From Micromonospora echinaurantiaca (GTDB taxonomy: Bacteria > Actinomycetota > Actinomycetes > Mycobacteriales > Micromonosporaceae): a DNA stretch of 64,000 nt. The notes beneath the pieces are model-generated. The model did not search any database. It was given only the letters and a program-made list of their open reading frames with translations, and was not told the DNA's origin. Shown in pieces: positions 6,589 through 31,587 of this stretch; positions within the stretch are counted from its first letter, which is position 1, and every line of letters begins with the position of its first letter. The stretch lies in NCBI RefSeq assembly GCF_900090235.1, contig NZ_LT607750.1, positions 563,501 through 627,500 of the forward strand, read 5' to 3'. The position numbers were made by a program, and so were the translations under genes.

Positions 6589-7658
6589 TGCTGGAGACCA
6601 CGATCGCGGCGATCCGGCCGCTGGACGAGCCGGCGATGGCCGCCGCCCGGGAACTGCAGGGCCGGCTGACCAAGCCCGCCGGTTCGCTCGGCGCGCTGGA
6701 GGAACTCTCGGTACGCCTCGCCGGCCTGGCCGGGGCCTGCCCGCCGCCGCTGCCCGAGCCGGCCGCGGTGGCGATCTTCGCCGGTGACCACGGCGTACAC
6801 GCCCAGGGGGTGACCCCCTGGCCGCAGGAGGTCACCGCCCAGATGATCGGCAACTTCCTGGCCGGCGGCGCGGTGGTGAACGCGTTCGCCCGGCAGGCCG
6901 GCGCCACGGTCACCGTGGTCGACGTCGGAGTGGCCACCCCGGTGCCCGCCGCCCCGGCGAGCGACGCCGGCGCGCCCCGGCTGGTGGCGGCGAACGTCCG
7001 GGCCGGCACCCGGGACCTGGCGGTGACCGCCGCGCTCACCCGGGAGGAGGTTCGGGCCGCGGTGGAGACCGGCATCCGGGTGGCCGGCGACCTGATCGAC
7101 GCCGGGGCGGGCATCCTGCTCACCGGTGATATGGGCATCGGCAACACCACCCCGGCGGCCGCGCTGATCGCCGCGTTCACCGGAGTCGACCCGGCGGAGA
7201 CGACCGGTCGGGGCACCGGCGTGGACGACCCGACGTACCAGCGGAAGATCGGCGTGGTGCGGGACGCCCTGCGCCGGCACCGGCCCGACCCGGCCGACCC
7301 GCTGGGCGTGCTGGCCGTCGTCGGCGGCCTGGAGCACGCCGCCCTCGCCGGGCTGATCCTCGGCGCCGCCGCCCGCCGCACGCCGGTGCTGCTGGACGGG
7401 GTGATCGCGGTCTCCGCCGCGCTCGCCGCCGCCGCCTTCGCGCCGGACGCCACCGGGGCGATGGTCGCCGGCCACCGCTCCGCCGAGCCCGGCGCCACGG
7501 TCGCGCTGCGTCGGCTCGGCCTCGACCCCCTGATCGACCTCGGGCTGCGCCTCGGCGAGGGCACCGGTGCGCTGCTCGCGCTGCCGGTGGTCACCGGCGC
7601 GGTCCGGGTGCTGCACGAGGTGGCCACCTTCGACTCGGCCGGGGTGGCCGAGAAGTGA
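6585..7658 (+). CDS. cobT: Nicotinate-nucleotide--dimethylbenzimidazole phosphoribosyltransferase
   Basis: This 357-residue CobT makes alpha-ribazole 5'-phosphate from nicotinate mononucleotide and 5,6-dimethylbenzimidazole, the lower-ligand branch of cobalamin assembly. Visible signatures are GRLTKPAGSLGALEELS near residue 25, FAGDHGVHAQGVTPWP near 65, the TGDMGIGNTTPAAA glycine-rich loop, and the C-terminal GLRLGEGTGALLAL segment with the catalytic-base Glu. The start is ATG 6585 or 6588, overlapping the cobC stop. The stop TGA (7656-7658) overlaps a GTG that opens the first of three micro-ORFs leading to the siroheme/uroporphyrinogen methylase gene. Confidence 0.95.
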   Translation: MMLETTIAAIRPLDEPAMAAARELQGRLTKPAGSLGALEELSVRLAGLAGACPPPLPEPAAVAIFAGDHGVHAQGVTPWPQEVTAQMIGNFLAGGAVVNAFARQAGATVTVVDVGVATPVPAAPASDAGAPRLVAANVRAGTRDLAVTAALTREEVRAAVETGIRVAGDLIDAGAGILLTGDMGIGNTTPAAALIAAFTGVDPAETTGRGTGVDDPTYQRKIGVVRDALRRHRPDPADPLGVLAVVGGLEHAALAGLILGAAARRTPVLLDGVIAVSAALAAAAFAPDATGAMVAGHRSAEPGATVALRRLGLDPLIDLGLRLGEGTGALLALPVVTGAVRVLHEVATFDSAGVAEK

Positions 7659-7873
7659 GCACGCTGGGCAGCGTGGCGCCGCACGCCGGTGGAAAGCGCA
7701 GCGGAGTGCCGGCATGAGCGAGCGTCAGCGAGCGAATCATCGGCTCAGCGCGGAGGTGCCTCATGGCGGCACGGAGCGCAGCGGAGTGCCGGCATGAGCG
7801 AGCGTCAGCGAGCGAATCATCGGCTCAGCGCGGAGGTGCCTCATGGCGGCACGGAGCGCAGCGGAGTACCGGC
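7655..7873 (+). repeat. Tandem micro-ORF repeat between cobT and cysG-like gene (one 59-bp and two 80-bp units)
   Basis: Three units fill this gap exactly. Unit one runs 7655-7713 and reads as a 20-residue ORF (GTG 7655 to TGA 7717) ending RSGVPA. Units two (7714-7793) and three (7794-7873) are identical except for one change near the end of unit three (GTGCCGGC becomes GTACCGGC). Each reads as a 27-residue ORF starting MSERQRANHR and ending GGTERSGVPA. Each junction is ATGA (GTGA at the cobT end), so stops and starts overlap all the way from cobT to the next gene's ATG at 7874. Each unit ends in a GGAG site 7 bases before the next ATG. In units two and three the CGGCAC and GTGCCG arms can pair over it. 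The same family occurs at 30630-30789. Confidence 0.85.
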
Positions 7874-9103
7874 ATGAGCGGCAATCCGTACCCGCTCGGG
7901 CTGCGGCTGGCCGGGCGGCGGGTGGTCGTGGTGGGCGGCGGGGCCGTCGCCACCCGGCGGGTGCCGGCCCTGCTCGACGCCGGCGCCGACGTCCTGCTGG
8001 TCGCCCCGGAGCTGACCCCGGCGCTGCGGGCGCACGCCGACGCCGGCCGGCTGCACTGGGCGCCGCGCCGGTTCGCCCCCGACGACCTGGACGGGGCCTG
8101 GCTGGTCCAGGTCGCGGTCGACGACCCGATTGCCGCCGCGTCGGTCAGCGCGGCCGCCGCCGAGCGGCGCATCTTCTGCGTACGCGCCGACGACCGGGCG
8201 GCCGCCACCGCGTGGACCCCGGCGGTGACCCGGCACGGCCCGGTCACCGTGGCCGTGCTCGGCGGCGGCGACCCGCGCCGGGCGATGAGCGTGCGCGACG
8301 CGGTGCGGGACCTGCTCACCGCCCGGATCGAGACGGCCCCGGCCGGAACGGCGACCGGTGCCGCGGCCGGCCGGGTCGCGCTGGTCGGTGCCGGGCCGGG
8401 CGACCCGGAGCTGATCACCGTCAAGGGCTGGCGGCTGCTCACCGCGGCCGACGTGGTGGTCGCCGACCGGCTGGTCCCCGGGCTGCTCCTCGACGAACTG
8501 CGCGCCGACGTGGAACTGGTCGACGCCTCGAAGATCCCGTACGGGCCGGCCCGCGCGCAGGAGGAGATCAACCGGATCCTGGTGGACCGGGCGCTGGCCG
8601 GGAGGTTCGTGGTCCGGCTCAAGGGCGGCGATCCGTACGTCTTCGGGCGGGGCGGTGAGGAGCTGCTCGCCTGCGCGGCGGCCGGTGTGCCGGTGACCGT
8701 GGTGCCGGGGGTGACCAGCTCGATCGCCGCGCCGGCGGTGGCCGGCATCCCGGTCACCCACCGGGCGGTGGCGCACGAGTTCACAGTGGTCTCCGGGCAC
8801 GTCGCGCCGGACTCGCCGGCCTCGCTGGTGCGCTGGGAGCACCTGGCCGGGCTGCGCGGCACCCTGGTGATCCTGATGGGCCTGAAGAACCTGGCCGAGA
8901 TCACCGCCACGCTGATCGCGCACGGCCGGCCCGGGCAGACGCCGGCCGCGGTGGTGCAGGAGGCCACCACCGGCGCCCAGCGCGTGCTCCGGTCCACGCT
9001 CGCCTCGGTCGCGGCGGACGTGACCGGGGCGGGGCTGCGCCCGCCGGCGGTGGTGGTGGTCGGCGACGTCGTGCCGGTGCTCTCGTCGGTCCCGCTCGCC
9101 TGA
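7874..9103 (+). CDS. cobA: Bifunctional precorrin-2 dehydrogenase / uroporphyrinogen-III C-methyltransferase (CysG/CobA fusion)
   Basis: The protein has 409 residues from ATG 7874, which lies at the edge of the repeat unit and follows a GGAG site. Residues 1 to about 155 form a siroheme-synthase NAD-binding domain (VVVVGGGAVATRRV, then a dehydrogenase-like strand order). From about 165 comes the SUMT methylase: VALVGAGPGDPELITVKG, then VVADRLV, RLKGGDPYVFGRGGEE, and VPGVTSSIAAPAVAGIPVTHR. The two domains methylate uroporphyrinogen III twice with SAM and oxidise precorrin-2, feeding cobalamin and siroheme. The CysG ferrochelatase function is not assured because the N-terminal part is short. 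Confidence 0.93.
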   Translation: MSGNPYPLGLRLAGRRVVVVGGGAVATRRVPALLDAGADVLLVAPELTPALRAHADAGRLHWAPRRFAPDDLDGAWLVQVAVDDPIAAASVSAAAAERRIFCVRADDRAAATAWTPAVTRHGPVTVAVLGGGDPRRAMSVRDAVRDLLTARIETAPAGTATGAAAGRVALVGAGPGDPELITVKGWRLLTAADVVVADRLVPGLLLDELRADVELVDASKIPYGPARAQEEINRILVDRALAGRFVVRLKGGDPYVFGRGGEELLACAAAGVPVTVVPGVTSSIAAPAVAGIPVTHRAVAHEFTVVSGHVAPDSPASLVRWEHLAGLRGTLVILMGLKNLAEITATLIAHGRPGQTPAAVVQEATTGAQRVLRSTLASVAADVTGAGLRPPAVVVVGDVVPVLSSVPLA

Positions 9104-29125: not shown

Positions 29126-30633
29126 TGACGACGGTCTGGGATCCCCGGTTGATGACCGGTCACGCGCCGGCCGGGCCGGGCCTGCTGCGCAACTTCGTCG
29201 GCGGCGAGTTCGTCGCGGCCGGCAGGACCTTCACCAAAGCCAGCCCGGTGACCGGGGAACCGGTCTTCGAGGTGGCCGAGGCCGACCGGTCCACGGTGGA
29301 CGACGCGGTGGCCGCCGCCCGGGCGGCGCTGCGCGGGCCGTGGGGTCGGATGGGCGAGCGGGAGCGGGCCGAGGTGCTGCGCCGGGTCGCCGACGAGCTG
29401 GAACGTCGCTTCGACGACCTGGTCACCGCCGAGGTGGCCGACACCGGCAAGGCCATCTCGCAGGCCCGCACCCTGGACATCCCGCGCGGGGCGGCCAACT
29501 TCCGGGCCTTCGCCGAGATCGTGGCGACCGCGCCGACGGAGTCGTTCACCACGGTCACCCCGACCGGCGGCCGGGCGCTGAACTACGCCGTCCGCAAGCC
29601 GGTCGGCGTGGTCGCGGTCATCGTGCCGTGGAACCTGCCGCTGCTGCTCCTCACCTGGAAGGTCGCCCCGGCGCTGGCCTGCGGCAACGCGGTGGTGGTG
29701 AAGCCGAGCGAGGAGACGCCCGCCTCGGCGGCGCTGCTCGCCGAGGTGATGGCCGCGGCCGGGGTGCCGGCCGGGGTCTTCAACCTGGTGCACGGCTTCG
29801 GCCCGGACTCGGCCGGGGAGTTCCTCACCCGGCACCCGGACGTCGACGCGATCACCTTCACCGGCGAGTCGGCCACCGGCAGCGCCATCATGCGGGCCGC
29901 CGCCGACGGGGTGAAGGCGGTCTCCTTCGAGCTCGGCGGCAAGAACGCCGGGCTGGTCTTCGCCGACGCCGACCTGGACGCGGCGGTGGCCGGCTCGGTC
30001 CGGTCCAGCTTCACCAACGGCGGCCAGGTCTGCCTCTGTACCGAGCGCGTCTACGTGCAGCGGCCGGTCTTCGCCGAGTTCACCGAGCGGCTGGCGAAGC
30101 GGGCCGCGGACCTGGCGTACGGGTGGCCGGCCGACGAGGCCACGGTGAACATGCCGCTGATCTCGCACACCCACCGGGACAAGGTGCTCGGCCACTACGC
30201 CCTGGCCCGCACCGAGGGCGCCGAGGTGCTGACCGGCGGCGGGGTGCCGGCGTTCGGCGACGCCCGCGACGGCGGGGCGTACGTGCAGCCGACGGTGCTC
30301 ACCGGGCTCGGCCCGGACGCCCGGACCAACCGCGAGGAGATCTTCGGTCCGGTGGTGCACGTGGCCCCGTTCGACACCGAGGAGGAGGCGTACGCGCTGG
30401 CCAACGGCACCGAGTACGGACTGGCCGCGACGGTGTGGACCCGGGACGTCGGCCGCGCGCACCGGGCCGGGGCCCGGCTGGACGCCGGCATCGTCTGGGT
30501 GAACACCTGGTTCCTGCGCGACCTGCGCACCCCGTTCGGCGGGGTGAAGGCGTCCGGCATCGGGCGCGAGGGCGGCCTGCACTCGCTGGACTTCTACTCC
30601 GAACTCACCAACGTCTGCGTGGACCTGTCATGA
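29125..30633 (+). CDS. 2-Aminomuconic 6-semialdehyde dehydrogenase
   Basis: The 502-residue NAD-dependent aldehyde dehydrogenase oxidises 2-aminomuconate semialdehyde to 2-aminomuconate. The general ALDH residues are Asn170 (VPWNLPL), Glu269 (FELGGKN) and Cys303 (QVCLCTER). The AMSDH-type Arg121 in DIPRGAANF and the late RDLRTPFGGVKASG block that binds the carboxylates are present. It is close to 2-hydroxymuconate semialdehyde dehydrogenases, but the operon context decides. The TGA at 30631-30633 overlaps an ATG at 30630 that begins the first micro-ORF repeat. Confidence 0.92.
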   Translation: MTTVWDPRLMTGHAPAGPGLLRNFVGGEFVAAGRTFTKASPVTGEPVFEVAEADRSTVDDAVAAARAALRGPWGRMGERERAEVLRRVADELERRFDDLVTAEVADTGKAISQARTLDIPRGAANFRAFAEIVATAPTESFTTVTPTGGRALNYAVRKPVGVVAVIVPWNLPLLLLTWKVAPALACGNAVVVKPSEETPASAALLAEVMAAAGVPAGVFNLVHGFGPDSAGEFLTRHPDVDAITFTGESATGSAIMRAAADGVKAVSFELGGKNAGLVFADADLDAAVAGSVRSSFTNGGQVCLCTERVYVQRPVFAEFTERLAKRAADLAYGWPADEATVNMPLISHTHRDKVLGHYALARTEGAEVLTGGGVPAFGDARDGGAYVQPTVLTGLGPDARTNREEIFGPVVHVAPFDTEEEAYALANGTEYGLAATVWTRDVGRAHRAGARLDAGIVWVNTWFLRDLRTPFGGVKASGIGREGGLHSLDFYSELTNVCVDLS

Positions 30634-30789
30634 GCGAGCGCAGCGAGCGAATCATCAGGTGCAGTGCGGTGGAGCCTCATGGCGGCACGGAGCGAAGCGG
30701 AGTGCCGACATGAGCGAGCGCAGCGAGCGAATCATCAGGCGCAGTGCGGTGGAGCCTCAAGTCGGCTCCGAGCGAAGCGGGGAGCCGAC
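30630..30789 (+). repeat. Two tandem 80-bp micro-ORF repeat units inside the kyn operon
   Basis: Unit one is 30630-30709 and unit two 30710-30789. Each encodes a 27-residue ORF (30630-30713 and 30710-30793) that starts MSERSERIIR and ends with SG(V/E)PT, with ATGA at both ends, so a ribosome can pass from the dehydrogenase through both units to the hydratase ATG at 30790. In each unit, bases 54-59 pair with 73-78, next to the GGAG site for the following start. Unit one has CGGCAC/GTGCCG and unit two CGGCTC/GAGCCG extended to 9 bp, so paired bases 58 and 74 change together. It is homologous to the 7655-7873 block. Confidence 0.88.
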
Positions 30790-31587
30790 ATGAGCGATTA
30801 CGAGGCCGCGGCCCGGGAACTGGTCACGGCGCGGGAGAGCGGCAAGCCCTGCCCACCGCTGCGCGAGCGGCTGCTGCCCGAGGGGGACGTCACGTCCGCG
30901 TACGTGGTGCAGCAGCTCCAGGTGCGGCAGTGGCTGCAGCGCGGCCACCGGCGGGTCGGCGCGAAGATCGGGCTGACCTCCCGGGCGGTGCAGGAGAGCT
31001 TCGGCGTGTACCAGCCGGACTTCGGCGTGCTGCTGGACAGCATGGCGGTGCCCGACGGTGCGGAAATCGGCCTGGACCGGCTGCTCCAGCCCCGGGTGGA
31101 GGCGGAGGTCGCCTTCGTGCTCGGCGCCGACCTGCCCGACGAGCGGGTCACCACGGCCGACCTGACCCGCGCGGTCGACCACGTGCTGCCGGCGATCGAG
31201 ATCGTCGACTCCCGGGTCGCCGGCTGGGACATCTCCATCGTGGACACCGTCGCCGACAACGCCTCCAGCGGGCTGTTCGTGCTCGGCACCACGCCGCGCC
31301 GGCTCACCGACGTGGACCTGCGGCTCTGCGGGATGGTGCTGGAACACGCGGGGGAGCCGGTCTCGGTCGGCGCCGGGGCGGCCTGCCTGGGCAACCCGCT
31401 GCACGCGCTGGAGTGGCTGGCCCGCACGATGGCCCGCTCCGGCGACCCGCTGCGCGCCGGTGACGTGGTGCTCTCCGGGGCGCTCGGCCCGATGGTGCCG
31501 GTCACCCCCGGCGCGGCGTACGAGGCCCGGATCTCCGGCCTCGGCTCCGTCCGGACCTGTTTCTCGTCGTCGGAGGGGGCGTCGTGA
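30790..31587 (+). CDS. 2-Oxopent-4-enoate (2-keto-4-pentenoate) hydratase
   Basis: The 265-residue protein belongs to the FAH-like hydratase/decarboxylase family. It has the conserved [26 protein letters not shown] region, the [10 protein letters not shown] metal-ligand segment, and [17 protein letters not shown]. MhpD/XylJ-type members add water to 2-oxopent-4-enoate to give 4-hydroxy-2-oxovalerate. The start ATG 30790 is the end of the second micro-ORF unit, with GGGGAGCCGAC upstream. It is followed by a GTGA overlap (31584). Confidence 0.9.

Follow-up and report, generated by a model that had tools for sequence, protein, structure and literature searches.

The window, a stretch of 64,000 nucleotides of the Micromonospora echinaurantiaca genome, contains a tryptophan catabolism operon with genes for a tryptophan 2,3-dioxygenase-like protein, kynureninase, an FAD monooxygenase-like protein, 2-hydroxymuconic semialdehyde dehydrogenase, a hydratase, acetaldehyde dehydrogenase, and 4-hydroxy-2-oxovalerate aldolase; the scores of the dioxygenase, monooxygenase, and hydratase were below the cut-offs of their respective families. 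Two 80-bp units, arranged head to tail and 91% identical, are located between the dehydrogenase and the hydratase gene (Table 1). As originally predicted, each unit is an open reading frame of 27 codons, and the dehydrogenase gene, micro-ORF 1, micro-ORF 2, and the hydratase gene are joined by three identical ATGA stop/start overlaps, with the TGA of the dehydrogenase gene (positions 30631-30633) sitting within the ATGA of the first unit. The GGAG motifs expected near each following start were also present. The changes proposed for the hairpin between unit 1 and unit 2, an A-T pair that became T-A and two mismatches that became pairs, were found, but a T-A pair in the lower stem became an A-A mismatch. 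The stem is longer than first described, with the CTCAT in its 5' arm paired to the ATGAG of the next start.

Table 1. Repeat units, associated elements, and flanking genes in the window. The start of the dehydrogenase gene is approximate and was taken from the profile match.
Feature	Position	Strand	Basis or remark
2-Hydroxymuconic semialdehyde dehydrogenase gene	29185..30633	+	TIGR03216, 808.8 bits (cut-off 693.25)
Repeat unit 1, 80 bp	30630..30709	+	family profile match, 83.4 bits
Repeat unit 2, 80 bp	30710..30789	+	family profile match, 75.1 bits
Micro-ORF 1, 27 codons plus TGA	30630..30713	+	ATG at 30630, TGA at 30711-30713
Micro-ORF 2, 27 codons plus TGA	30710..30793	+	ATG at 30710, TGA at 30791-30793
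Hairpin 1	30676..30714	+	arms 30676-30688 and 30702-30714; 3' arm contains the start of micro-ORF 2
Hairpin 2	30756..30794	+	arms 30756-30768 and 30782-30794; 3' arm contains the hydratase start
GGAG, Shine-Dalgarno-like, for micro-ORF 2	30699..30702	+	sequence
GGAG, Shine-Dalgarno-like, for hydratase	30781..30784	+	sequence
2-Keto-4-pentenoate hydratase-like gene, downstream	30790..31587	+	NF008461, 298.2 bits (below the cut-off of 350)
Second array: 59-bp derivative (7655-7713) and two 80-bp MSERQRANHR-type units	7655..7873	+	
Gene after second array, tetrapyrrole methylase and NAD-binding domains	7874-9103		

The pair of units goes beyond a chance resemblance. BLAST located the repeat at 48 places in the 7.2-Mb genome, and a search with a sequence-only profile built from 40 units yielded 77 matches with E ≤ 0.01 in the same genome, which were grouped into 55 arrays; a duplicate of the window sequence (L013) was excluded from the array tables. 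The largest array, at locus L012, is composed of nine full units behind a 35-bp remnant. Partial matches were scanned by eye for a longer autonomous element between partial copies, and this candidate was rejected since none of them paired up.

Matches were present in 17 of 18 congeners, with 0 to 92 per genome. Within the Micromonosporaceae, a threshold of 1e-6 gave matches in 78 of the 150 genomes sampled and in 24 of the 44 genera, the own genome included. Across the phylum, 2 of 396 genomes matched at 1e-7, the own genome and one congener, so that the family profile had no match outside Micromonospora in this sample; the family and phylum searches used stricter filters, by which weak matches were lost. 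Twelve genomes of other families gave a single weak match (E = 4.6e-4). Peptides of the MSERSERII type, for which a wide occurrence had been predicted, are indeed widespread. The sole Rfam match was at chance level and on the opposite strand, with 13.5 bits compared to a gathering score of 40, and a literature search, with most subscription papers outside its reach, found no account of the 80-bp repeat in Micromonospora.

For an evaluation of the position of the arrays, a coding frame was defined as at least 50 codons with a third-position GC content of at least 0.88 that was well above that of the other positions. The right end was located at an NTGA word in 51 of the 55 arrays, and 49 of these 51 words opened a coding frame. 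An upstream coding frame ended exactly in the left NTGA of 35 of the 55 arrays when scored by script, and both ends were in agreement in 31. Eighty-seven unmasked RTGAGY sites of the window served as a control and gave 32 sites for the right end, 7 for the left end, and 3 for both (Fisher test against the arrays, P = 3e-10, 2e-12, and 4e-13, respectively); the repeat units of the window were not masked for this control, which makes the comparison conservative. Manual inspection of the 20 arrays that had failed at the left end added five exact overlaps and three stops no more than 3 bases away, yielding 40 of 55 exact left ends and 43 of 55 within 3 bases. In the other arrays, a spacer or remnants preceded the left end, or else the 260 bases before it contained no coding stop (L009, L012, L129). 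The copies are thus at gene starts and mainly at stop/start overlaps, as anticipated. The more specific claim of an operon junction as the target agreed with most copies, which are at overlaps, but not with those at starts without an overlapping upstream gene, such as the L012 site. This indicates that the target is the start codon and not the operon junction per se.

The right end of the array contained TGAG in 47 of 51 cases, compared to 14 of 64 empty coding overlaps at the same loci. The empty coding overlaps were chiefly GTGA (49 of 64) and the right ends of the arrays chiefly ATGA (40 of 51), which may reflect target choice or an A contributed by the inserted repeat. That this A of the downstream ATG comes from the repeat in every case was ruled out: nine units had a G at the left and an A at the right end, one had a T at the left and an A at the right, and six had an A at the left and a G at the right. 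Due to these six units, good evidence for an A supplied by the element comes from the site at an M42-peptidase gene alone. This site was filled in the own genome only among 22 loci, with GTG at the left end of the copy and ATG at its right end; five relatives had GTGAGC at this position and the remaining 16 had other starts.

Orthologous sites were compared in relatives. At the hydratase junction, 80 named loci were examined, and 78 of them had a dehydrogenase stop that could be located. Fifteen loci, for instance L049, L051, L076, and L081, had a bare overlap; L061 contained a single full unit, L075 had a full unit together with a partial unit that is fused to the hydratase, and L072 had a diverged 80-bp unit. 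The closest relative (L045, hydratase 98% identical) carried an in-frame 50-bp derivative without the 5' arm of the hairpin, indicating that the hairpin is dispensable at this locus. Mapped onto the hydratase tree, the three loci scored as “full” required three changes, and well-supported branches force two of these; L072 was labeled as partial. Insertion or loss has therefore recurred.

A site upstream of a response regulator gene was filled in the own genome only, among 20 loci read. At the nine-unit site, two of 27 other loci (L254 and L275) had 80-bp units of a very different sequence, each with an intact ORF, a possible remnant was present in L256, L279 was unreadable, and the rest contained no unit. 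Some of these orthologues had a TACGGT-like box a few bases 5' of the start, so that the target at this site may have been a leaderless start. Paralogous loci (L242-L251, about 60% identity) were left out of these locus readings.

Other sequences were also found at these positions. Four loci (L059, L075, L082, and L089, at about 2460-2510) contained remnants of the repeat that are apparently in-frame N-terminal extensions of the hydratase (MSERCERIIG..., MSERSERSGR...), possibly a route to new protein N-termini. A recurrent insert of 66-75 bp, which contains GGGCAGAATGGCCGG or a near variant, was present at the hydratase junction in L050, L064, L069, L078, L079, L084, and L087 (about 2426-2501) and in some other Micromonospora; it may represent a different family. 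In L224, the orthologue of the L017 site, a sequence of about 39 bp that starts with ATGAACGCGTACGAC is repeated in tandem upstream of the response regulator gene.

The copies studied in relatives came from 60 regions, which were chosen among the best-scoring matches listed in the congener and family searches and thus not at random. After removal of five alternative or overlapping segmentations, 135 units were bounded at both ends. The size was 80 bp in 121 of them, 71 bp in nine, 81 bp in two, and 53, 79, and 72 bp in one each, and the ORF was intact in 131. An internal stop codon occurred in none of 101 distinct 80-mers in frame 0, in 6 in frame 1, and in 47 in frame 2. This result was evaluated on a minimum spanning tree in which 79 type-A units are connected by 525 substitutions. 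Under a uniform substitution model, 17.6, 21.6, and 25.0 stop-making changes were expected in frames 0, 1, and 2, respectively, and 0, 7, and 31 edges changed the stop count. The shortfall in frame 1 (7 compared to 21.6) indicates that the uniform expectation of 17.6 for frame 0 is also too high, perhaps 3-fold, but the absence of such changes from frame 0 still stands out with a lowered expectation. In the second subfamily, MSERQRANHR, a +1 and a -1 shift cancel each other. A conserved function of the peptide was rejected: diversity was almost equal across the codon positions, with 0.17, 0.20, and 0.22 for positions 1, 2, and 3.

That unit lengths obey the rule set by the overlaps was correct for the 121 units of exactly 80 bp, but only in part for the others. 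Eight of 15 hand-collected variant lengths were 2 mod 3 (83, 74, 71, 59, 53, 50, 35, and 23 bp), where 5 were expected, and 7 broke the frame (81, 81, 79, 72, 64, 51, and 42 bp). A strict frame rule for every length variant therefore fails, and frame keeping among the unusual lengths is only suggestive.

The last 38 bases of the unit plus the next six form a stem, with CTCA(T) pairing with (A)TGAG. Covariation in this stem, as predicted, was evaluated with 87 of the 91 distinct 3' ends; four (L042:2993, L168:689, L173:775, and L174:748) were omitted due to indels or short units. Pairing cells accounted for 95.6%, compared to a mean of 92.0 in shuffled alignments, 35 cells had double changes compared to 6.6, and the covariation score was 0.130 compared to 0.064 in shuffled and at most 0.044 in slid alignments. 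None of 500 shuffles attained these values for pairing, double-change cells, and covariation; the number of pairs with double changes was unremarkable, being reached in 52 of 500 shuffles. The column pair 16-32 appeared as A-U, G-C, C-G, G-U, and U-A. Since shuffles ignore the relatedness of the sequences, this evidence for covariation is good, yet not tree-corrected.

A separate pair count used all 91 distinct 3' ends. Single ends of 44 bases had a mean folding energy of -21.7 kcal/mol, and the TGA of the start was fully paired in 85 of the 91, while the stability of the two-unit segment overall was ordinary (z = -1.04). Of 115 distinct units, 110 had GGAG or GAGG ahead of the start.

Mycobacterial interspersed repetitive units (MIRUs), which serve in strain fingerprinting of Mycobacterium tuberculosis, are the closest known counterpart. 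Their target, reportedly given by Supply et al. in 1997, is DTGA. Published accounts describe MIRUs as apparently mobile, inserted at start codons, and with an inner ORF at a -4 spacing (PMC12548453). Two located at senX3-regX3 are 77 and 53 bp in size (PMC4213456), MIRUs occur in tandem with a number that varies between strains (PMC9392950), and strain H37Rv has them at 41 places; at one junction, a long gap in the M. tuberculosis complex corresponds to a few bases elsewhere (PMC2734929). One MIRU fills a 5' untranslated region of which the relative is leaderless (PMC4128351). The 80-bp unit is similarly dispersed over many loci and partly in tandem (77 matches in 55 arrays), resides at a start codon and contains an ORF that overlaps the target start by 4 bases, and is present or absent at orthologous sites of related species. 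The published MIRU sizes of 77 and 53 bp at senX3-regX3 are 2 mod 3, as are the 80, 71, and 53 bp found here. The present repeat differs in its occurrence in another bacterial family and in its size of 80 bp, and it may also differ in its covarying end hairpin, which includes the TGAG of the target. By published descriptions and not by sequence, the 80-bp repeat appears to work like a MIRU. The original prediction, supported in outline, did not name this close precedent, which makes the proposed model less new than thought.

These data establish a dispersed repeat that targets start codons and whose sites are filled in some genomes and empty in others. They also establish its open frame and the covariation of a stem located next to a Shine-Dalgarno-like site. 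Together, they make it probable that the repeat is an apparently mobile, non-autonomous start-codon element similar to MIRUs, of which the 27-codon ORF keeps translational coupling and the terminal hairpin holds the next start. The element inserts at TGAG start codons, mostly ATGAG, and leaves TGAG at both ends, as shown by the comparison of occupied with empty orthologous sites. The ORF of the inserted copy takes over the start codon of the target gene, and the copy ends with its own GGAG or GAGG and a TGA overlapping the restored start of the target. Tandem copies may stem from repeated insertion or from duplication of units. Translation could then pass from gene to micro-ORF(s) to gene with no gap, the translation of the micro-ORFs being suggested by the absence of in-frame stops from a unit of established anatomy. 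The covarying end hairpin probably locks the next start codon, and a ribosome finishing the micro-ORF would melt the hairpin and reinitiate, which would render downstream translation dependent on upstream translation. According to one account, a short ORF whose stop overlaps the start of the following gene would bring the ribosome to that start (PMC12548453). The micro-ORF would hand over the ribosome to the coupled gene as a coupled upstream ORF does, but it is part of a dispersed repeat and chainable, with nine full units in L012. A mobilizing enzyme, of which none was found, would act in trans and the number of units would tune expression. The predicted mobile module that inserts at gene boundaries without breaking translation thus agrees in outline with the 55 arrays, the empty sites, and the open frames.

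Part of this evidence would also be expected from a selfish repeat without any regulatory role, with insertions outside of starts being purged, a broken ORF harming the host gene, and the hairpin aiding the mobility of the element itself, for example, as a folded single-strand end of which the CTCA pairs to TGAG. The peptide is not conserved, the occupancy of orthologous sites is patchy, and the CTCA, which exactly complements TGAG, is more strictly kept than its neighbor (columns 5-8 pair in 83-87 of 87 sequences, column 9 in 72 of 87). This explanation is nevertheless rather unlikely because the GGAG or GAGG sites would be needless for mobility alone and a Y1-type transposase is not associated with the repeat. 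Among 19 Micromonospora genomes, 8 had such a gene (PF01797), comprising 2 of the 9 with at least 12 matches and 6 of the 10 with fewer; lacking a tie to copy number, a Y1 (RAYT/IS200) transposase was rejected as the present-day mobilizer but may have mobilized the repeat in the past. That the units drive the downstream gene by a promoter or another transcription signal has some background, since promoter activity was described for the senX3-regX3 gap of M. tuberculosis, which contains MIRUs (PMC4213456). A consensus scan of positions 30550-30900, which covered the sigma-70-like type only, detected neither such a promoter nor a terminator, and a transcription signal would leave the open frame and the exact overlaps unexplained, so that this explanation is very unlikely. 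Mere local duplication of gene starts in tandem, without a mobile family, would be in line with units that start like genes (ATGAGCGAG) and with arrays that are almost identical internally (L012), but 55 arrays in one genome, an occurrence in 24 of 44 sampled genera, and the empty orthologous sites refute it as the sole explanation and leave it hardly credible, although tandem duplication may account for the copy number within arrays.

The MIRU-like start-codon repeat could be extended by a speculative and unlikely model of start-codon homing, in which the CTCA of the folded end would read TGAG, guide the insertion, and then lock the restored start, with the number of units as a stepwise rheostat. 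The ends of REP and IS200-IS605 elements have a hairpin adjoining a short fixed target word and a complementary tetranucleotide across the stem. The 80-bp unit likewise has a hairpin by its target word TGAG and the complementary CTCA, but it is a single direct unit that contains an ORF, no counterpart was evident at its left end, and Y1 genes are independent of its copy number. If start-codon homing is true, one structure would provide mobility and translational gating, and each unit of the resulting heritable translational rheostat would multiply expression by one reinitiation efficiency.

The MIRU way of life, that of an element hidden in an overlap with its own ribosome relay, is thereby suggested to exist beyond the mycobacteria. 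Arrays of 1 to 9 units before varied genes in soil actinomycetes provide a natural series for measuring translational coupling and reinitiation. As the loci L059, L075, L082, and L089 suggest, the micro-ORFs and their remnants could pass for genes or for N-terminal extensions of genuine proteins.
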